Shown in pieces: positions 740 through 25,438 of a stretch of DNA of 32,479 nucleotides. Position numbers and translations under genes: made by a program. Positions within the stretch are counted from its first letter, which is position 1, and the number at the start of each line of letters is the position of its first letter. The notes beneath the pieces are model-generated. The model saw nothing but the letters and a program-made list of their open reading frames with translations. It was not told the DNA's origin and did no database searches. Source of the stretch: Clostridiisalibacter paucivorans DSM 22131 (GTDB taxonomy: Bacteria; Bacillota; Clostridia; Tissierellales; Clostridiisalibacteraceae); assembly GCF_000620125.1 (NCBI RefSeq), contig NZ_JHVL01000039.1:1-32479 (forward strand). Reading direction: 5' to 3'.

Positions 740-1756
740 ATGATATCTATTGAAAGCTTAAACAAAGTATTTAAAAACAGTGACAAAAGCAACTTCTATG
801 CCCTAAAAAATATAAATTTAAAGATTCAAGAAGGAGAGATATACGGAATAATAGGGCTAAGTGGTGCAGGTAAATCTACTCTTATTAGATGTCTCAATAG
901 ACTAGAAGAGCCCTCTTCTGGTGAAATATATATAGACAATAGTGACATCACTAAATATAATACCTCCCAATTAAGGGAATTAAGAAAAAGTATTGGTATG
1001 ATTTTTCAACATTTTAACATATTGAGCTCCAGAACAGTTTTCCAAAATATAGCCTTTCCATTAGAAATCTCAGGATATAGTAAAAATGAGATCAAAAAAA
1101 GGGTTGAAAAACTTCTAGAGCTAGTAGAACTTTCAGATAAAAGGGATACATATCCCTCCCAATTAAGTGGAGGCCAAAAACAGAGGGTTGCCATAGCAAG
1201 GGCCCTCGCCAATGAACCCAAGATACTTTTAAGTGATGAATCCACATCTGCATTGGACCCTAAAACTACTAAATCTATACTAAATTTAATTAAAAAAATC
1301 CAAAAAGAGATGAGTTTGACTGTAATATTGATTACACATCAAATGGAAGTTATAAAGGAAATCTGTGATAAAGTAGCAATAATTGAAGATGGTGAAATTA
1401 TAGAATCGGGAAATGTAGAAGATATATTTGCAAGCCCCAAAACCAAAACTGCAAAGGCCTTTGTATCCAGTATTCATACCAATACTGAAGAAGAGTTGAA
1501 TTTTCCTAAAATCAAAGGTACTAAAGTTATAAAACTAAAATTTTTAGGCGAGACATCAAAGGAACCCTTAGTATCTCAAGCCATAAAGAAGTTTGATATT
1601 GACATAAATATCTTATCAGGCAATATAAGTGAACTTATGAAAACCAGTGTAGGTCATTTGATAATTCAAGTTTTTGGAGAGTGTAATGAAATAGAAGAGA
1701 CAATCCACTGGTTCAATACTAATAAAGTTAATACAGAGGTGATTTGGAATGGCTGA
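740..1756 (+). CDS. metN: Methionine ABC transporter ATP-binding protein
   Basis: ATPase of the MetNIQ importer for methionine, acting at the inner face of the membrane. The 338-residue protein has Walker A GLSGAGKST (39-47), the Q-loop at Q90, signature LSGGQ (142-146), Walker B ILLSDE (162-167) and the switch His200. Residues from about 260 form the C-terminal NIL (ACT-like) domain that lets MetN be inhibited by intracellular methionine in characterised members. AAAGGAG (724-730) sits 9 nt before the ATG, fixing the start. The gene is first behind the S-box riboswitch and its last 8 bases overlap metI, so the two are probably translationally coupled. The Walker B region reads SDESTSALDP where CDEATSALDP is commoner, a conservative change. 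Function is firm from sequence plus context. Confidence 0.96.
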   Translation: MISIESLNKVFKNSDKSNFYALKNINLKIQEGEIYGIIGLSGAGKSTLIRCLNRLEEPSSGEIYIDNSDITKYNTSQLRELRKSIGMIFQHFNILSSRTVFQNIAFPLEISGYSKNEIKKRVEKLLELVELSDKRDTYPSQLSGGQKQRVAIARALANEPKILLSDESTSALDPKTTKSILNLIKKIQKEMSLTVILITHQMEVIKEICDKVAIIEDGEIIESGNVEDIFASPKTKTAKAFVSSIHTNTEEELNFPKIKGTKVIKLKFLGETSKEPLVSQAIKKFDIDINILSGNISELMKTSVGHLIIQVFGECNEIEETIHWFNTNKVNTEVIWNG

Positions 1757-2399
1757 TATTTTACATTTACTTATTGACCCCCTTTGGGAGACGCTATATA
1801 TGGTCGGTGCTTCCACAATATTTTCGTTGGCATTGGGACTTCCTTTGGGAGTGCTATTAGTTATAACTGAAAAGGGAGGCATATGGGAAAAAACTATGCT
1901 CAATTCAATTTTGGAGACTATAGTTAATATAAGTCGATCTTTCCCTTTTATTATTCTAATGATCTTAGTATTTCCCCTTTCAAAATTTGTTGTGGGAACT
2001 ACTATCGGGACTACTGCCAGTATAGTACCTCTATCTATAGCTGCTGCTCCATTTGTTGCTAGAGTAATAGAATCTTCACTTAAAGAGGTAGACAAAGGAA
2101 TTTTAGAGGCAGCAGACTCTATGGGAGCCACTATTCCCCAAATAATATTTAAAGTATTAATCCCTGAGGCTATGCCTGCATTAGTATTAGGTATTACTTT
2201 GACTATTATAAATTTAATAAGTTATTCTGCCATGGCAGGAGCCATAGGGGCTGGTGGTTTAGGAGACTTGGCAATAAGATATGGTTTTTATAGATTTCAA
2301 ACTGATGTGATGATTGCTGCTGTAATTGTCATAATAATTTTGGTTCAATTAGTACAGTGGTTGGGAAATACCATTGCTAACAATATAAATAAAAAATAG
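1749..2399 (+). CDS. metI: Methionine ABC transporter permease
   Basis: Membrane subunit of the methionine importer. The 216-residue protein has about five hydrophobic segments and a permease EAA loop (EAADSMGATIPQIIFKVLIP, roughly residues 118-137) that contacts the ATPase MetN. Length matches the MetI family (about 215-220). The ATG lies inside the end of metN, preceded by a GAGGTG ribosome binding site in the metN coding sequence. It is the second gene of the SAM-riboswitch operon, with metQ 14 nt downstream. Confidence 0.95.
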   Translation: MADILHLLIDPLWETLYMVGASTIFSLALGLPLGVLLVITEKGGIWEKTMLNSILETIVNISRSFPFIILMILVFPLSKFVVGTTIGTTASIVPLSIAAAPFVARVIESSLKEVDKGILEAADSMGATIPQIIFKVLIPEAMPALVLGITLTIINLISYSAMAGAIGAGGLGDLAIRYGFYRFQTDVMIAAVIVIIILVQLVQWLGNTIANNINKK

Positions 2400-2413
2400 G
2401 AGGTTGTTATATT

Positions 2414-3235
2414 ATGAAAAAAATTATTTCTCTTTTATTAGTATTAACTTTACTAGGTTCTATCACTTTAGCAGGATGTGGCAATAATAATTCCAATGGT
2501 GATACTTCTAAGGAAGACAATGTAATTACAATAGGTGCGTCTCCTGTCCCCCACGAAGAGATACTTAACGCTATTAAAGCAGATCTAGAAACACAGGGCA
2601 TTGAACTTAAAATAATCCAATTCACCGACTATGTTAAACCTAATATGGCTTTAGCAGATGGTGAAATAGATGCCAATTTCTTTCAGCATGAGCCTTATAT
2701 GAATAAATTTAAAGAAGAAAAAGGTGTAGATATTACATCATTAGGTAAAGTGCATATAGAACCTTTGGGATTATATTCAAACTCCGCCTCTTCCATTGAG
2801 GAATTAAAAGATGGTGCCTCTATAGCTATACCAAATGACCCTACTAATGGTGGTAGAGCATTAATACTTTTACAAAACAATGGATTAATAAAACTAAAGG
2901 AAGGTATTGGATTAGAAGCTACAGAATTGGATATAGCTGAAAATCCAAAGAACTTTGTATTCAAACCTCTTGAGGCAGCTCAACTCCCAAGAGTATTAGA
3001 TGATGTAGATGCAGCCGTAATAAATGGAAACTATGCATTGGAAGCAGGATTAGTACCTACAGAAGATGCTATCCTTATTGAAGGTGCTGACTCTCCATAT
3101 GCAAATATTATAGCTATTAGAAGTGGCGAAGAAAACAGCGAAAAACTTCAAGCATTGTTAAAAGCCCTTCACTCCGATAAAGTTAAAGAATTTATTGAAG
3201 AAAATTATAATGGCGGTGTTGTACCTACATTTTAA
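2414..3235 (+). CDS. metQ: Methionine-binding lipoprotein
   Basis: Substrate-binding lipoprotein of the importer, anchored on the outer face of the membrane. A signal peptide (MKK then a hydrophobic core) ends in the lipobox LAGC with the lipidated Cys at residue 22, followed by an Asn/Ser/Asp-rich linker. The mature part is the NlpA/MetQ periplasmic-binding fold (for example FTDYVKPNMALADGEIDANFFQHEPYM), which binds L- or D-methionine in characterised homologues. The AGGAGG site at 2398-2403 decides the start. It is the last gene of the operon and is followed by a strong terminator. Length of 273 residues is typical. Confidence 0.95.
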   Translation: MKKIISLLLVLTLLGSITLAGCGNNNSNGDTSKEDNVITIGASPVPHEEILNAIKADLETQGIELKIIQFTDYVKPNMALADGEIDANFFQHEPYMNKFKEEKGVDITSLGKVHIEPLGLYSNSASSIEELKDGASIAIPNDPTNGGRALILLQNNGLIKLKEGIGLEATELDIAENPKNFVFKPLEAAQLPRVLDDVDAAVINGNYALEAGLVPTEDAILIEGADSPYANIIAIRSGEENSEKLQALLKALHSDKVKEFIEENYNGGVVPTF

Positions 3236-4189: not shown

Positions 4190-5626
4190 TTATACATTGT
4201 TCTGTACAGTATTTGTATTATTAGATACTTTACTTTGAACCTTTAAAAATATAATCAAAGCTACTATAGCAGCTAAAATACCTACTGGATATGAAATACT
4301 AGTAGAAAGTCTAAATCCCTCTTTTGCTTGTAAAATATATGTTACAGACACAGCTGTCATAAATGTTGCGGGCACCGTTGATATCCAATGCAATTTATTA
4401 TTTTGTATAAGATAAGCTGATGCTGACCACAATACAATCGTTGCTAATGTCTGATTCGACCATGCGAAATATCTCCATATTACATTAAAGTCTATTCTAG
4501 TTAATGCAAATCCTATTGCAAATATGGGTATAGCTAACATTAATCTATTTTTTATAACTCCTTGCTTATATCCAACTGCATCTGCCATAACTAATCTTGC
4601 ACTTCTAAATGCTGTATCTCCAGATGTTATAGGCGCAGCTATAACTCCCAACATAGCTAATAAACCACCTATAGTTCCCAATAAGCTACTAGATATTGTA
4701 TTTACTACAGCTCCAGGTCCTCCTGCATCTACTGCTGCATCAAGCCCTAATACTCCTCCATCAAAAAACGTCATTGCCGCTGCTGCCCAGACCAATGCTA
4801 TTATACCTTCTGCAATCATTGATCCATAGAAAATCTTTCTGCCGTATTTTTCATTAGTCATACATCTAGCCATCATAGGTGATTGAGTAGCATGGAACCC
4901 TGATATGGCACCACATGCTATAGTAACAAATAACATAGGCCATAAAGTCAATCCCTTAGGATGCATATTAGTCAATGTAACTTCTGGTATATTATATCCC
5001 TTTATTACCATCATTCCCCCTATTCCAATAGCCATTATAAGAAGGGCCGCTCCAAATAGAGGATAAACTCTACCAATAACCTTGTCAACTGGCAATATTG
5101 TTGCCATAAAATAATAAACTAGTATTATAGCTAACCATATATTTAAACTTCCCAACCCAAATAGTTCTAAATCTGCAAGTAATTTAGCAGGTCCAGTCAT
5201 AAATACTGTTCCAACAAGGATCAGCAATACTACTGAAAATACCCTCATAATCCTCCTTGCATTCTCTCCTAAGTATATACCTACTATTTCTGATATACTT
5301 TTACCCTCATGTCTAACAGAAAGCATTCCAGAAAAATAATCATGTACTCCTCCTGCAAATATACTTCCCAATACTATCCATATAAAGGCCGCAGGTCCAA
5401 AAAGTGCTCCCATAATAGCACCAAAAATAGGTCCTAATCCAGCTATATTTAAGAACTGTATCAAGAAAATTTTACTCCATTTCATCGGAACAAAATCCAC
5501 CCCATCAGTCATAGATATCGCTGGAGTAGGTCTATCCTCCTGAACTCCGAAAACCTTTTCAACAAAGGCTCCATAAATGAAATATCCTATTATAAGTATT
5601 GCTATGGAACTCAAAAATGATACCAT
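4190..5626 (-). CDS. cstA: CstA-family transporter (carbon starvation / pyruvate or peptide uptake)
   Basis: Polytopic membrane protein of the CstA family. It is recognised by the N-terminal stretches FLNIAGLGPIFGAIMGALFG and FAGGVHDYFSGMLSVRHEGK and by FHATQSPMMARCM, with about 13 hydrophobic segments in 478 residues. This is the short form; E. coli CstA and BtsT are about 700 residues. Family members take up peptides or pyruvate by proton symport; which substrate applies here is not shown by sequence. An AAGGAGG site precedes the ATG. It is the gene immediately downstream of the LytS/LytR-type pair, the same partnership as BtsSR-BtsT in E. coli, so regulated uptake of a fermentable acid such as pyruvate is a reasonable inference. 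A separate promoter lies at 5660-5688. Confidence 0.9.
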   Translation of the reverse strand: MVSFLSSIAILIIGYFIYGAFVEKVFGVQEDRPTPAISMTDGVDFVPMKWSKIFLIQFLNIAGLGPIFGAIMGALFGPAAFIWIVLGSIFAGGVHDYFSGMLSVRHEGKSISEIVGIYLGENARRIMRVFSVVLLILVGTVFMTGPAKLLADLELFGLGSLNIWLAIILVYYFMATILPVDKVIGRVYPLFGAALLIMAIGIGGMMVIKGYNIPEVTLTNMHPKGLTLWPMLFVTIACGAISGFHATQSPMMARCMTNEKYGRKIFYGSMIAEGIIALVWAAAAMTFFDGGVLGLDAAVDAGGPGAVVNTISSSLLGTIGGLLAMLGVIAAPITSGDTAFRSARLVMADAVGYKQGVIKNRLMLAIPIFAIGFALTRIDFNVIWRYFAWSNQTLATIVLWSASAYLIQNNKLHWISTVPATFMTAVSVTYILQAKEGFRLSTSISYPVGILAAIVALIIFLKVQSKVSNNTNTVQNNV

Positions 5627-5758: not shown

Positions 5759-6526
5759 CTACTTTATATCCATAATCTTTTTAAATTCTTTAACCTGACT
5801 CCTACTTACAGGTATTTTTTCTTCTACATTCTGCATTTTAACTTGATATGTGCTATTAAACCAAGGCTCAATAGACTCTATATAATCTAAATTTATGATA
5901 AAACTTCTGTGACTTCTGAAAAAACCACAATGTACTAATTTTTTTTCAAGTTTACTCAATGTGTCCTGATAAATAAATCTTCCCTTCTTTGATATAACTA
6001 TGGTATCCCTCTCTTCTACTGTACAATATATTATATCTTTGGAATCTAGAGGTATCAATGCTCCATTCTTATATAGACAGATTTTATTTACCTCTCCTTC
6101 TTCCTTTACCTTTATATCACTAATTAATCTCTCTATATGTCTTTCATATTGAGGAGTTATAGTCTTACTTATAGACCTTATCTTATCTAATGCCTTTTCT
6201 AATCTAACCTTAGAAACTGGCTTCAATAAATAATCTATTGCATTTACTTCAAATGCCTTTATTGCAAAGTCATCATATGCCGTTACAAATATTATTAATG
6301 GCTTTTTTTCTCTTTTATATATTTCCTCTGCCACCTTCAAGCCATTTATCTTTGGCATTTGAATATCTAATATCACTAAATCTGGATTAAGTATATCATT
6401 CATTTCTATCGCTTCTAATCCATGAGATGCTTCTCCAACTATATTTACATCTTCTATATCCTCTAGTAAGTATTTGATTTCTTCCCTTGCTGGCATCTCA
6501 TCATCTACAATAAGACAATTTATCAT
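5759..6526 (-). CDS. LytTR-type response regulator
   Basis: Cytoplasmic transcription factor partnered with the kinase encoded just upstream. The receiver domain (residues 1-120) has the acidic pair D8-D9, phospho-acceptor D54 in LVILDIQMP, T82 and K102 in YLLKPV. The C-terminal part (about 150-252) is a LytTR DNA-binding domain, with DIIYCTVEERDTIVISKKG and the typical FFRSHRSFIINLDYIESIEP. Its ATG overlaps the kinase stop by 4 bp (ATGA), showing coupled translation. The cstA-type gene follows 132 bp downstream and is the likely target. It belongs to the LytR/BtsR/YpdB group, not to the unrelated LytR-CpsA-Psr enzymes. Confidence 0.93.
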   Translation of the reverse strand: MINCLIVDDEMPAREEIKYLLEDIEDVNIVGEASHGLEAIEMNDILNPDLVILDIQMPKINGLKVAEEIYKREKKPLIIFVTAYDDFAIKAFEVNAIDYLLKPVSKVRLEKALDKIRSISKTITPQYERHIERLISDIKVKEEGEVNKICLYKNGALIPLDSKDIIYCTVEERDTIVISKKGRFIYQDTLSKLEKKLVHCGFFRSHRSFIINLDYIESIEPWFNSTYQVKMQNVEEKIPVSRSQVKEFKKIMDIK

Positions 6527-8220
6527 TTAAAGTCACCTCTCTGCTTAGGAATTTTCATAATCACCTTGGTACCTACTCCAACATTACTTTCTATCTTCAA
6601 ACCATAATTATCACCATATTTATTTATTAATCTCTGATTAACATTTATAAGTCCTATAGATTGGTTTCCCTTGTCATTAGAAAATATATTATATAACTTT
6701 TCCTTTTCCATGCCTATTCCATCATCTTTAACAATAAGTATAGTTTCTTCTTCCATATCTTCTGCAATTATATCTATTGTTCCATTATCTAATTTCTCCA
6801 TTATACCATGTTTTATAGCATTTTCAACCAATGGCTGTAATATTAATGGTGGCAAATAACATTGTATATCTTCATCTATATGGTATTTTACGTTTAATTT
6901 ATCTCCAAATCTAGCCTTTTCTATTTCTAAATATGAATTTATATGCTCTATCTCTTTCATTAGATTTACTTCTTCTTGATTTTGTTGGAGATTCTTTCTA
7001 AAGTAATCACCAAGATGTATCAATAGCTGTCTGGCCTTATCAGGTTTTATCCTTATAAAAGATACTATTGTATTTATAGCATTAAATAAAAAATGGGGAT
7101 TTATTTGAGCTTGAAGTGCCTTTAATTCGGCCTTAGCTAATAATTTTGATTGTTCTTCTATTTTGCTCAATTCTATCTGTGTAGAAAATAGCATTGCTAG
7201 CCCCAATGCCAGTTCTAAATCAATTTGTGTAATGGCATTTTCTGTAGTCTTATAAAGCTTTAATGCACCTATGACATTATTCTGTCCTTCCAATGGCACT
7301 ATAACTGCCGATTTTAATTTGCAATTACTATTACCACAATCAATCTGATCACTATTGTAAGCTACCCTATAATTTCCATATTTAATTACATCTTTAGTCA
7401 ACCCTGTTTTTATATCATCTCCCGTTATATGGTGATCTTCTCCGATACCCACATGGGCCAGTATTTTTTCTTTATTAGTTATAGCCACCGCCTTTAAATC
7501 TGTCATATCATATATTATTTTAGCAGTCTCATAGGCAGTTTCTTTATTAAACCCCTTCCTCAAATACTTTAATGTCTTATTGGCTATCTTTAATGCTCTC
7601 TGGGCTTGGATTGCAGCAGCCTGTTCCTGATCCTTAAATATGGTTTCTATTATGCCTATAAATATGGATATGCCTATTGCATTGGCCACTATCATAGGTA
7701 TAGCAATGATTTCAACCAGTCTCACTGCCATATCAAAGGGTCTAGCAACCATCAATATTATTACCATTTGTAGCATCTCTGCAATAGCTCCCGCCGCCAA
7801 TGCAAATAACCACTTATTGTCTGTTTCATAAAACTTCTTACTTAAAAACCCTGACATTAGTCCCTCTGTGATAGTAGATAATGCACAAGCCAGTGCAGTA
7901 AATCCTCCAATATCTATAATCCACCTATGTCCCCCAGCAATAATCCCTGATATTACTCCAACAAAGGGACCACCTAAAAGCCCTCCAACAAATACTCCAA
8001 TAACTCTAGAATTGGCCAATGCTCCCCGTATAGGTATACCTGAATATGTTCCAAATATACCAAATAAGCCAAAAAAAACAGATAAAATTATTTTATCTTT
8101 ATATCCTATTTTATTCTTTTCTAATAAATGCCTAAAAACATTTACCTTTGACAGTATAAATGCCAATACTATTATTATACCTACCCTATTTCCTAAATTG
8201 CCCATTATATCCATTACCAA
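6523..8220 (-). CDS. LytS-type sensor histidine kinase (5TM-LYT, GAF, HisK)
   Basis: Membrane sensor of 565 residues. Residues 1-195 form the multi-helix 5TM-5TMR_LYT input domain (conserved NSRVIGVFVGGLLGGPFVG). About 215-350 is a GAF domain containing C295-x4-C300 followed by KLKSAVIVPL, a spot where LytS relatives also carry cysteines. The kinase core has phospho-acceptor H376 in QINPHFLFN, the N-box PLVENAIKHG (N467) and G-box DDGIG (499-503). E. coli relatives BtsS and YpdA sense pyruvate; the ligand here is unproven. I favour the TTG at 8220 because GGGAG (8234-8230) is 9 nt upstream; the ATG at 8214 would be 15 nt away. The leader holds a hairpin and a heptamer array. Confidence 0.92.
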   Translation of the reverse strand: MVMDIMGNLGNRVGIIIVLAFILSKVNVFRHLLEKNKIGYKDKIILSVFFGLFGIFGTYSGIPIRGALANSRVIGVFVGGLLGGPFVGVISGIIAGGHRWIIDIGGFTALACALSTITEGLMSGFLSKKFYETDNKWLFALAAGAIAEMLQMVIILMVARPFDMAVRLVEIIAIPMIVANAIGISIFIGIIETIFKDQEQAAAIQAQRALKIANKTLKYLRKGFNKETAYETAKIIYDMTDLKAVAITNKEKILAHVGIGEDHHITGDDIKTGLTKDVIKYGNYRVAYNSDQIDCGNSNCKLKSAVIVPLEGQNNVIGALKLYKTTENAITQIDLELALGLAMLFSTQIELSKIEEQSKLLAKAELKALQAQINPHFLFNAINTIVSFIRIKPDKARQLLIHLGDYFRKNLQQNQEEVNLMKEIEHINSYLEIEKARFGDKLNVKYHIDEDIQCYLPPLILQPLVENAIKHGIMEKLDNGTIDIIAEDMEEETILIVKDDGIGMEKEKLYNIFSNDKGNQSIGLINVNQRLINKYGDNYGLKIESNVGVGTKVIMKIPKQRGDFK

Positions 8221-8242
8221 TGATTACCACTCCCTTTTGGCA

Positions 8243-8361
8243 GTTCTTGGTTCTTAGTTCTTAGTTCTTAGTTCTTGGTTCTTAGTTCTTAGTTCTTGGT
8301 TCTTGGTTCTTAGTTCTTAGTTCTTGGTTCTTGGTTCTTAGCTCTTGGTTCTTAGCTCTTA
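8243..8361. repeat. Heptanucleotide tandem array, 17 units of GTTCTT(A/G)
   Basis: Exactly 17 consecutive 7-bp units fill 119 bp. Fifteen are GTTCTTA or GTTCTTG and two near the right end are GCTCTT(A/G). The array starts 22 bp upstream of the kinase TTG start, just behind its ribosome binding site, so it lies in the leader or promoter zone of the lytSR-type genes. A 7-bp unit changes spacing but cannot preserve reading frame, and no coding frame crosses it. Variation in copy number by slippage is plausible. Confidence 0.97.
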
Positions 8362-8367
8362 GAAAAA

Positions 8368-8392
8368 AGTAGAAATCTATAGGATTTCTACT
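8368..8392 (-). repeat. Core hairpin of the palindromic repeat family, terminator-like on the minus strand
   Basis: AGTAGAAATC (8368-8377) pairs with GATTTCTACT (8383-8392) over TATAG. Read on the minus strand it is followed by TTTTTT, so it could act as an intrinsic terminator or attenuator in the kinase leader. The core matches the hairpin centre at 25391-25413. Confidence 0.7.
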
Positions 8393-8473
8393 ACTTACTT
8401 ATTCTACAATATATATTTGTCAATAATCTGATATATAAATTATATATTAATACTCTTATTTTGAAAACACCTG

Positions 8474-8511
8474 GAAAAAAATAGTTGGTAATTAAAAATT
8501 AACTACCAACT
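8474..8511 (-). terminator. Intrinsic terminator of the his operon
   Basis: On the minus strand AGTTGGTA-G-TTAA pairs with TTAA-T-ACCAACT (one internal mismatch, TTT loop; 8511-8483), followed by ATTTTTTT. It lies about 100 bp beyond the hisIE stop and closes the histidine operon. Confidence 0.85.
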
Positions 8512-8553
8512 CAGATTGCTAACAACCATACAATTATAATAAAGTCATAAAAA

Positions 8554-8632
8554 AGTTAGTAGTTTAATGATGCGAACCATAGGTTCTCTACCATCAACTA
8601 CTAACTACAAACTACTAGCTACGAACTGTATT
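8554..8632 (-). repeat. Palindromic repeat element overlapping the hisIE 3' end
   Basis: AGTTAGTAGTT (8554-8564) is perfectly complementary to AACTACTAACT (8596-8606), with an inner GAACC-ATA-GGTTC hairpin. The right side continues as AGTT-containing heptamers through the hisIE stop codon (8615-8617) and its last few codons. Read on the minus strand, TGATGGTAGA...CCTATG and GCATCATTA match the element at 21444-21535. Confidence 0.8.
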
Positions 8633-9247
8633 ATGCCTTTTGTACAATTCCCCTTTTATATCATCTATATCTATGCCCATATGAACTAATAACACCAATA
8701 TATGATATACCAAATCACTTACTTCATAAACTACTTCATCTCTACTTTCATTTTTAGCCCCTATTATTACTTCACTGGATTCTTCCCCTACCTTTTTCAA
8801 TATCTTATCTATTCCCTGGTCAAATAAATAGTTGGTATATGAGCCTTCTGTGGGATTAGATCTCCTGTGTTCTATTAATTTATATAATCTATATATGAAA
8901 TCTTTAATTTTTCCATCAATATCTTTGTCTAATATATTATTATGAAAACAAGAATATTCTCCCGTATGACAAGCCACACCCTTTTGTCTAACTTTAACTA
9001 ATATAGTGTCACCATCACAATCATAGTCCATTTTTATTATTTCTTGTGTATTTCCTGATTCCTCCCCCTTATGCCAAAGTTTTTTTCTACTCCTACTATA
9101 AAACCATGTCTCTCCACTTTTCCATGTTCTCTCCAGTGATTCCTCATTCATATATGCTAACATTAACACTTCATTAGTATTGATATCTTGAATTATTGCA
9201 GGTATAAGTCCATTTTTATCAAATTTTATATCTTTTATAAAATCCAT
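8615..9247 (-). CDS. hisI: Bifunctional phosphoribosyl-AMP cyclohydrolase / phosphoribosyl-ATP pyrophosphatase
   Basis: HisIE fusion catalysing steps 2 and 3 of histidine synthesis (PR-ATP to PR-AMP to ProFAR) in the cytoplasm. Residues 1-105 are the HisI domain, with LAYMNEESL, TWFYSRSRKKLWHKGEESGN, DCDGDT and the zinc-site motif GVACHTGEYSCF. Residues from about 113 are the HisE domain, with GSYTNYLF, KVGEESSEVIIGAKN and the acidic EVSDLVYH helix. It is the last gene of the operon, 4 bp after hisF. The final residues (VRS and stop) are encoded by a palindromic repeat element that has invaded or formed the 3' end, so the C-terminus probably differs slightly from that of relatives. Length of 210 residues is normal. 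Confidence 0.95.
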   Translation of the reverse strand: MDFIKDIKFDKNGLIPAIIQDINTNEVLMLAYMNEESLERTWKSGETWFYSRSRKKLWHKGEESGNTQEIIKMDYDCDGDTILVKVRQKGVACHTGEYSCFHNNILDKDIDGKIKDFIYRLYKLIEHRRSNPTEGSYTNYLFDQGIDKILKKVGEESSEVIIGAKNESRDEVVYEVSDLVYHILVLLVHMGIDIDDIKGELYKRHNTVRS

Positions 9248-17252: not shown

Positions 17253-17289
17253 TAAAAAATGGGGTCAGGCTCACCTTTAAACTTTATTT
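17253..17289 (+). repeat. RAYT-associated repeat, copy R2
   Basis: Identical over 37 bp to R1 (16314-16350). Its right end overlaps the stop and last codons (NKV) of the RAYT transposase gene, as an inverted partner of R3 on the other side of that gene. Confidence 0.93.
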
Positions 17290-18101
17290 ACTATTCTAGA
17301 TATAGTTTGCTCTGAGACCTTAAGTCTATCAGCTAATTCTCTTTGACTCATTAGCTTGTTTTTAATTACTGTCTTAACAAATTTCTCTTTTATTTTGCTA
17401 GTTTTTCTATTCTTGGCCCTCCCCATTAAATCTTCATAAATGATTTCATATTTATTTATAAATTGGTTTAATAACTCTTCATATGTTAAATCAAAATTTA
17501 ACTCTTTATTATATTTTGTAATGTTTTCATTAGGTATAAATTCATAATCACTTTTACATTCAATAATATCTTCTTGTTCCATGAATTTTAAGTACTTACT
17601 TATAGCTTCATTCTTCTTGGTTGAAAAAATAGACATTGGAAAATAAATATCACAATATATGGGAGTGTATGTTTTATATTCCCTATGACTGCTCCATCTA
17701 TAATCTATATCTGCTATCCCTGCTCTTACTGGATTATTATGTATATATTTTATTAATGTGAGTAAATACTGATCTTTATCACATAATATTGACTTATACC
17801 TCTGTTCAAATACATGTCCAGTTCTTTCATTCACCTTATTATAGTGTTGAGTAAATGTCTGTTGTATTAATTGCATAGGTTTTGACAATGGTATATCATC
17901 CACTTCAATCAATAAATGAGCATGATTATCCATAATCGCATAGGCATATAATTTGCAATCATATTTATCTATGTATGTCTTGACCTTTTTCAAATATAAC
18001 CCTTTCATTTTATTAGATTCAAAAATATATTGTCTATTATTACCTCTTACTATCACATGATAAAGGGCTCCTCTATAGTGAACTCTTGTTTTTCTAGGCA
18101 T
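17277..18101 (-). CDS. REP-associated tyrosine transposase (Y1 / HUH) with C-terminal HTH
   Basis: Single-strand nuclease of the Y1 transposase family, RAYT clade. The HUH motif is H60-A-H62 in MDNHAHLLIEV, and the likely catalytic tyrosine is Y87 in QQTFTQHYNKVN. The family hallmarks GHVFEQRYKS and YIHNNPVRAGI and WSSHREY are present. Beyond residue 240 lies a helix-turn-helix, LMSQRELADRLKVSEQTISR, a C-terminal extension seen in clostridial forms. RAYTs are domesticated or host-linked relatives of IS200 TnpA that act on repetitive palindromic sequences. Here four copies of a GGGGTCAGGCT repeat surround the gene, two of them flanking it in inverted orientation. AGGAGGG precedes the ATG. The frame of 274 residues looks intact and probably active. 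Confidence 0.93.
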   Translation of the reverse strand: MPRKTRVHYRGALYHVIVRGNNRQYIFESNKMKGLYLKKVKTYIDKYDCKLYAYAIMDNHAHLLIEVDDIPLSKPMQLIQQTFTQHYNKVNERTGHVFEQRYKSILCDKDQYLLTLIKYIHNNPVRAGIADIDYRWSSHREYKTYTPIYCDIYFPMSIFSTKKNEAISKYLKFMEQEDIIECKSDYEFIPNENITKYNKELNFDLTYEELLNQFINKYEIIYEDLMGRAKNRKTSKIKEKFVKTVIKNKLMSQRELADRLKVSEQTISRIVNKV

Positions 18102-21443: not shown

Positions 21444-21535
21444 GTTAGTAGTTTATAGTTCGTAGTTGGTAGTTGATTGTAGAAATCCTATGCATCATTA
21501 TGCTACGAACTACGGACTATCCTTTTACTACTAAC
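21444..21535 (+). repeat. Palindromic repeat element between eamA-type and cof-type genes
   Basis: A 92-bp long hairpin: GTTAGTAGT (21444-21452) pairs with ACTACTAAC (21527-21535), and ATAGTTCGTAGTT (21455-21467) with AACTACGGACTAT (21508-21520, one mismatch). The left arm has AGTT or TAGTT every 7 bp. The core TGATTGTAGAAATCCTATG matches the elements at 8554-8632 and 25369-25438. Confidence 0.8.
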
Positions 21536-25368: not shown

Positions 25369-25438
25369 AGTTAGTAGTTAGTAATTGATGGTAGAAATCC
25401 GTAGGATTTCAACTATAGACTACTAACTATAACTAACT
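25369..25438 (+). repeat. Palindromic repeat element between pepD and the FeS gene
   Basis: The arm AGTTAGTAGTTAGTA (25369-25383) is nearly complementary to TACTAACTATAACTAACT (25421-25438), with a small bulge. The centre GAAATCC (25394-25400) pairs with GGATTTC (25404-25410). The arm is built of AGTT-containing 7-mers, and TGATGGTAGAAATCC matches the elements at 21444 and 8554. It fills the space between the FeS gene stop and its terminator, so it would be in that gene's 3' UTR. Confidence 0.8.

Follow-up and report, generated by a model that had tools for sequence, protein, structure and literature searches.

In the leader of a sensor kinase gene of Clostridiisalibacter paucivorans DSM 22131, a tandem array of 17 heptamers can be found just in front of the ribosome binding site, within a stretch of 32,479 nucleotides (contig NZ_JHVL01000039.1, positions 1 to 32,479; the window). 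This array is probably the expanded gene-proximal arm of a decayed copy of a lineage-specific intergenic palindrome, and would mainly be an unstructured spacer without dedicated function in the 5' untranslated region (5'UTR). The palindrome family, its copy number, its intergenic place, the strand rule of its arrays and their absence from the orthologous leaders examined are observed directly. What was presumed to be a leader switch of one gene turns out to occur throughout the genome and to follow a strand rule that can be measured, which ties it to two separate reports on other heptamers.

On the minus strand, hisIE (8615-9247) is separated from the kinase gene (6523-8220) by 394 bp. Read on that strand, this spacer displays successively two hairpins, a long one at 8613-8547 followed by T6 and another at 8511-8483 followed by T7, then a promoter-like site (8467-8439), a further hairpin (8392-8368), the array (8361-8243), a GGGAG motif and the TTG start codon. 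The array reads AAGAACY on the mRNA strand and GTTCTTR on the plus strand, where 15 of the 17 units are exactly GTTCTTR and two are GCTCTTR. Tandem Repeats Finder places it at 8242-8362 with a period of 7, 17.3 copies and a score of 179, the next-best array of the window scoring 50. Considering this score, and that the two-unit pattern GTTCTTRGTTCTTRG has 128 matches in the C. paucivorans genome versus 7 for a reversed control, the 17-unit array of the original prediction is real and far above chance. Eight bases separate it from the Shine-Dalgarno (SD)-like GGGAG (8230-8234, minus strand), itself 9 bases before the TTG start at 8220; the proposed position directly 5' of the ribosome binding site is thereby confirmed, and the array probably lies in the 5' leader of the kinase mRNA.

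The terminator-like hairpin reported before the array was likewise recovered by a terminator scan, as AGTAGAAATC-CTATA-GATTTCTACT at 8392-8368, with T6 if the last stem base is counted. It shows the stem-loop and U-run pattern of intrinsic terminators and, judged by this pattern, is a putative one. Between 7900 and 8900 four terminator-like sites were detected (two being this hairpin on both strands) versus 0.5 +/- 0.8 in shuffles, and the scan also returned the T7 hairpin (8483-8511, minus strand). As for the -35 element claimed upstream, TTGACA is present at 8423-8418, but no -10 is seen at 16-18 bp and the site is absent from the promoter scan. The best promoter-like site and the only one on the minus strand, TTTTCA-17-TATAAT at 8439-8467, is not above chance, with 2 promoter-like sites in the scanned region around the array versus 5.9 in shuffles. 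The folding of a leader predicted to begin at 8432 does not exceed that of shuffles (z +0.93); its centroid is dominated by the core hairpin, most of the array remaining unpaired. TAA stops are present in all three frames of the array. Its units (GTTCTTR or GCTCTTR) contain no G3 runs as found in heptamers forming G-quadruplexes, and the unit is not TAACTGA. No match to Rfam 15 was obtained at the gathering threshold, either at this array or at the elements of seven other loci.

Hairpin and array are not two independent parts of the leader; model R1, introduced below, makes both of them parts of one dispersed element. The core of this family is a bulged hairpin, GAAATCC-NNN-GGATTTC, with TAGTTNN heptads as one flank and NNAACTA heptads as the opposite one. 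It is usually GTTGATGGTRGAAATCC-NNN-GGATTTCATCATTRAAC, sometimes GGGGGCGCTAGCGCCCCC, and the hairpin with its T-run at 8368-8392 (minus strand) is the variant AAATCCTATAGATTTC. The exact core GAAATCCNNNGGATTTC occurs at 62 sites in the C. paucivorans genome (reversed control, 0) and at a single site in each of two of the 59 relatives compared, which are genomes of the same order but of other genera and families. When the upstream copy (8547-8613) was used as query, similarity searching yielded at least 48 matches in the genome, 40 of 185 candidates having been scored. The covariance model R1, built from 21 copies, yielded at least 86, as the best 86 first-look candidates were scored and all matched; with strict filters, the best 86 first-look candidates in each of the 59 relatives gave no match. 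In a 432-kb sample, consisting of the window and 20 stretches of 20 kb at coordinates chosen regardless of arrays, 19 distinct copies were found at E <= 0.01, five being training sequences. With regards to the window itself, R1 matches a degenerate member at 8347-8406 on the plus strand (30.9 bits; E 0.0003 for the window with filters off). This member, which does not belong to the training set, covers the 8392-8368 hairpin and the beginning of the array. The canonical copy at 8547-8613 (minus strand, 80.7 bits, in the training set) folds into a single long hairpin followed by T6, with z = -3.5, and is probably the terminator of hisIE. Two more copies lie on the plus strand, at 21457-21518 (44 bits) and 25369-25435 (69 bits, in the training set). 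Among 17 predicted pairs of the core, compensatory change is seen in two only, both in two GAGAACC variants, so that covariation support is thin. A T5 run up to 60 nt beyond the stem, on either strand, can be found at 17 of 41 elements, leaving 24 without one.

The arrays are dispersed, too. Searching with the 301-bp array region gave at least 47 matches in the C. paucivorans genome (40 of 109 first-look candidates scored), while the pattern GTTCTTRGTTCTTRG is present in five of the 59 same-order genomes, with a highest count of 9. Thirty-two stretches around array matches were retrieved and their spacers examined in gene orientation. The element plan consists of TAGTTNN heptads, often starting from or inside the upstream stop codon, the hairpin core, and NNAACTA heptads (AAGAACY, ACTACGA, etc.), which in many cases extend up to the ribosome binding site of the gene that follows. 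Arm types vary among loci (GTTCTT, TTAG, GTAG, TCCG). These tandem 7-bp units, dispersed in many sets and mainly intergenic, are intergenic heptameric simple-sequence repeats. Across the class, three successive TAGTTNN units are found in 14 of 291 genomes, that of C. paucivorans included, versus 11 with the reversed control, and mere presence is therefore background; clear expansion is seen in C. paucivorans (123) and in genome G189 (166), and mild expansion in G167 (15).

The genes located behind the arrays do not form a functional group. Eighteen of the 19 genes behind other arrays have a Pfam match and one has none; they are functionally unrelated and include AhpC, MazG, SLH proteins, GlpX, a RarA-type ATPase, TsaD, a POR subunit, TruA, FliW, a nickel-insertion protein, SipL, an M23 peptidase and an amidase. 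No period-7 array is present in any of 29 orthologous kinase leaders (300 bp before the start or a shorter stretch), these being the best 29 of the 35 relatives with a kinase gene. Among these loci the order hisIE-kinase is found in G007 only, where the spacer of 109 bp is devoid of heptads. The idea that the array belongs to the kinase or its regulon is consequently not supported, dozens of arrays preceding unrelated genes and the orthologous leaders carrying none. A dedicated kinase switch is unlikely owing to the unstructured leader, the lack of arrays in the 29 orthologous leaders and the unrelated genes behind other arrays.

The orientation of the arrays follows a rule. In the C. paucivorans genome, GTTCTT or TAGTT is read away from the nearer open reading frame (ORF) in 38 of 52 intergenic arrays (one in-ORF array and three without both flanks being dropped), and in 28 of the 29 arrays located no more than 50 bp from an ORF. 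Where both neighbouring genes point the same way, the mRNA strand carries AAGAAC in 22 GTTCTT-type segments of at least 35 bp, and the opposite orientation is seen in two, four non-co-directional and two in-ORF rows being dropped. The 22 segments represent 20 arrays (20 to 2), because those of L009 and L020 are each split by an assembly gap. The distance from segment end to ORF start ranges from 5 to 406 bp and is at most 34 bp for 13 of the segments; for the two farthest (L018, L032), a looser gene call puts an ORF of 90-95 amino acids 15-17 bp away. An SD-like motif, loosely defined and accepted anywhere in the gap, separates array and start in 21 of the 22. Among the 15 arrays in stretches taken from further genomes of this class, 13 read outward. 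Only four arrays are usable in the 432-kb sample alone, two outward and two not.

Beyond the class, a cross-phylum scan for arrays of at least three units returned at least 120 stretches, of which 80 named loci were listed. Outward reading was found for 38 of 57 intergenic arrays (p 0.016) and for 30 of 46 within 50 bp, after 20 in-ORF arrays and 15 without both flanks had been dropped and with some misses in very short spacers kept. Judged by G+T skew, with clearly unequal distances, 38 of 55 arrays read outward. With heptads other than GTTCTT, the usable arrays number only 9, 6 of them outward. The outward strand within 50 bp of ORFs, as in published heptamer repeats, is thus seen here, and more weakly across phyla (30/46). 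In viral contigs, three successive GTTCTTR units occur in at least 120 stretches versus 9 and 4 for two permuted heptads. At 125 viral loci (L279-L403), 100 of 121 arrays lie inside ORFs, 92 of these in AAGAAC sense, which makes the viral data uninformative on intergenic arrays; the co-directional intergenic ones number 9 to 3 (n=12, p 0.15). Eight examples of viral in-ORF GTTCTTR arrays encode EPRTKNQ-like stretches.

A periodicity of 7 is also apparent in intergenic DNA taken as a whole. In the 197 spacers of the 432-kb sample, the recurrence of exact 6-mers is 2.87 per kb for lag 7 and likewise for lags 14 and 21, versus 0.17-0.75 at the remaining lags from 4 to 24. Coding DNA of the same sample gives 0.33 and 0.30 per kb at lags 7 and 14, and 1.31 at lag 21, higher as at other multiples of three. 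A clear period-7 segment can be found in 9 of the 197 spacers versus 0.4 in shuffles. Spacers of G007 (same order) reach 1.43, 1.42 and 0.99 at lags 7, 14 and 21 versus 0.10-0.91 elsewhere, and those of G189 (another order) 3.59, 3.32 and 2.26, with 2.17 at lag 22 and 1.58 at lag 9. In G024, no lag-7 recurrence was detected in the 10 spacers available. In G189 (L219-L226), G167, G114 and G140, of another order, some spacers consist of YAGTNNN heptads from stop codon to ribosome binding site; these stretches were chosen for pattern matches, and no core of the GAAATCC-NNN-GGATTTC kind was seen in those examined.

Regarding array turnover, higher-order units are specific to the locus (L010, 21 bp; L011 and L016, 14 bp), which argues for local turnover in 7-bp steps. 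The original prediction had expected changes of this size, and the array is indeed of a type likely to undergo them, presumably by slippage. Gaps of 10 N lie in or beside arrays at three loci (L009 3801-3810, L020 2663-2672, L021 707-716), versus one N run in the 432-kb sample, and the assembled copy numbers at these loci are therefore unreliable, a warning for any use of array lengths taken from assemblies. Pairing between the two arms of an element was rejected on average, since the own-arm duplex energy is -26.9 kcal/mol versus -26.8 kcal/mol with the arms of other elements (29 elements, p 0.85). As own arms pair no better than those of strangers, each arm seems to evolve alone. In array segments, the AAGAACY strand averages -0.073 and its complement -0.150 kcal/mol per nt.

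It can be hypothesized that arms grow and shrink in 7-bp steps via slipped-strand replication or unequal exchange, each arm separately. Growth of an array before a gene would be tolerated, as the AAGAACY strand forms little RNA structure and the ribosome binding site would stay free; the opposite strand in a leader may be selected against, or the growth process may itself be polar. With little structure and a free ribosome binding site, the array in front of the kinase gene would mainly be a passive spacer, i.e., a long unstructured portion of the 5'UTR without dedicated function and with, at most, a mild copy-number-dependent effect on expression.

Other explanations have to be considered. 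The palindromes could be terminators or insulators between genes, acting at the DNA or RNA level, and the array an overgrown terminator arm. The stable fold and T6 of the 8547-8613 copy (z = -3.5) and the T5 runs at 17 of 41 elements speak for this, but 24 of 41 have no T5 run and the arms of one element are on average unmatched, making the proposal unlikely. A copy-number rheostat, where array length would tune translation or transcription of the kinase and so the CstA transporter, would fit the position of the array 8 bases upstream of the SD-like motif; elsewhere, heptads differ mostly by 7-nt insertions or deletions between two strains of Cyanothece (PMC4679880). However, none of the 29 orthologous leaders carries an array, similar arrays precede housekeeping genes, and the array strand is nearly unstructured, so that its length has no obvious folding output; a rheostat appears rather improbable.

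It has also been envisaged that AAGAACY in the mRNA is a binding or standby site for an RNA-binding protein, such as ribosomal protein S1 or a cold-shock protein, enhancing translation genome-wide. AAGAAC does lie on the mRNA in 20 of 22 co-directional arrays, and the same idea is put forward for TAACTGA heptads (PMC4679880). Yet only 9 of the 197 sampled spacers have a clear period-7 segment, arm sequences are of at least the GTTCTT, TTAG, GTAG and TCCG types, and SD-like motifs are found in 21 of 22 gaps by a loose test, unlike the published TAACTGA case, where SDs are rare. We would give such a site a small chance. The presence of repeats and a terminator-like hairpin in one leader recalls attenuation as in pil1 of Streptococcus gallolyticus. 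Here, however, the hairpin is upstream of the repeats and TAA occurs in all three frames of the array, so that a ribosome translating through the array cannot open the hairpin, and attenuation of this kind is highly improbable.

Several observations weigh against the array being an expanded arm that acts as a passive spacer. At 30.9 bits, the window copy shows weak membership of the family compared with at least 58.8 bits for the 86 genome-wide matches, and transcription of the leader is predicted only. In the three elements with a GGGGG core (L010, L017, L020), own-arm pairing is the stronger one, and folding is reversed in L020, whose mRNA strand is more structured than its complement. When arms are counted strictly at 27 cored elements, the start side has a mean of 6.1 units versus 4.7 (p 0.83), and arms of at least 6 units number 8 on the start side and 5 on the stop side; without a significant excess in this count, the start-side bias rests on the array counts (28/29; 20 to 2). 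The 20:2 strand bias is itself compatible both with tolerance and with a positive function, for instance in enhancing translation or binding a protein. Finally, the comparison involves one genome, with no isolates and no relative of the same genus or family, hence copy-number variation is not observable in it.

Within the heptad arms, another repeat, TAAGCAGAGAACCCAAATCTTTATTATGATTTGGAGTGAATCGCTTA, which has two stems, one outer and one inner, was noted after GATGG at L016 6135-6089, L027 3422 and 3544, L024 2602, L026 2443 and L082 18674-18628; a variant copy at L089 6248 looks compensatory. In L024 and L026 it sits behind apparent 5' fragments of tRNA genes. Its middle occurs in 9 exact copies in the C. 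paucivorans genome, 4 of the 9 within about 75 bp of a contig end, and is absent from the 30 relatives searched. The five of its six loci that were searched against Rfam (L026 left out) gave no match.

The kinase gene (6523-8220, minus strand) encodes a LytS-type sensor of 565 amino acids with 5TM-5TMR_LYT, His_kinase and HATPase_c domains. Its TTG start aligns with ATG, GTG or TTG in 25 of 29 relatives and with CTG in three, and is off by one codon in one. On the same strand are found a LytTR response regulator of 255 amino acids (5759-6526) and a CstA-family transporter of 478 amino acids (4190-5626). The upstream gene hisIE (8615-9247, minus strand) is bifunctional, combining PRA-CH and PRA-PH. 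Heptads (GTTCGTA GCTAGTA ...) at 8615-8626 (minus strand) overlap its 3' end and encode the last residues VRS and the TAG stop; the protein ends in RHNTVRS, its final three residues and stop falling in heptads, and HisIE of G007 ends in RHK. An S-adenosylmethionine (SAM) riboswitch (513-618, 97 bits) is located upstream of plus-strand ORFs at 740-3235. A gene for a Y1_Tnp protein of 274 amino acids, resembling the transposases (RAYT) associated with repetitive extragenic palindromic (REP) elements, lies at 17277-18101 on the minus strand and is flanked by the inverted repeats GGGGTCAGGC and GCCTGACCCC at 18149-18140 and 17270-17261, with no heptad core beside it. A link of the RAYT/REP kind was rejected, as a core or heptad array is found at none of the 8 loci of the genome with Y1_Tnp matches, several of which are cut by contig ends.

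REP elements associated with RAYT transposases are intergenic imperfect palindromes with conserved mismatches, of which a genome has dozens. As a dispersed imperfect palindrome with conserved mismatches, the present family resembles them, but its arms are expanding heptads and no core stands beside any of the 8 Y1-transposase matches. In the STRR repeats of filamentous cyanobacteria, tandem heptanucleotides are dispersed in one genome, as they are here. Heptanucleotides of Calothrix are mentioned by Rehm et al. (PMC4692102). In the pil1 leader of S. gallolyticus, repeat number sets the length of a leader peptide, and ribosomes open a terminator (PMC3894217); tandem repeats and a terminator share one leader there as at the kinase locus, but here the hairpin precedes the repeats and no frame is open through the array.

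Closer parallels can be found in two reports on heptamers. Among the GGGAATC and GGGGA(C/T)T heptamers of Xanthomonas and Nostoc, those of the GGGAATC type lie mostly within 50 bp of ORFs, occupying the non-coding strand when upstream and the coding strand when downstream, and their neighbours belong to no functional class (PMC4692102). As in the arrays studied here, one strand reads outward and the neighbours form no functional class, and an inverted pair is shown there. These repeats are G-rich and form quadruplexes, whereas the present heptads have no G-runs and flank, as arms, the conserved bulged core of a palindrome. TAACTGA heptads occur in marine Beggiatoaceae, Cyanobacteria and Bacteroidetes (MacGregor, PMC4679880); in the Beggiatoaceae genome they are mostly placed directly before start codons in forward orientation, where they provide stops in all three frames, with no pattern in downstream functions. 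Unit length, position before the start, stops in all frames and unpatterned downstream functions are shared with the arrays described here. In the TAACTGA case, though, a single heptamer mostly replaces a recognisable SD and orientations are mixed in Microcystis, while variable heptads, SD-like motifs and palindromic cores are found here. The outward rule fits the GGGAATC repeats (PMC4692102) as well as the TAACTGA repeats of the Beggiatoaceae genome (PMC4679880). As a tentative possibility, the heptad arrays of unrelated bacteria (GTTCTTR/TAGTTNN, YAGTNNN, GGGAATC, TAACTGA) might share a G+T-rich outward polarity at gene starts and stops through one unrecognised process generating 7-bp units, whose direction gene boundaries would set, or one common constraint on leaders and trailers, palindromes being the meeting of outward tracts. 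If the rule were general, it would provide a simple, testable handle on the over-representation of 7-bp units between bacterial genes, a question on which PMC4692102 offers hypotheses only in its discussion. The literature search found no article title on GTTCTTR or TAGTTNN arrays; compared with the systems above, two features are new, namely palindromic cores whose heptad arms evolve freely and, for GTTCTTR arrays, the counts by strand.
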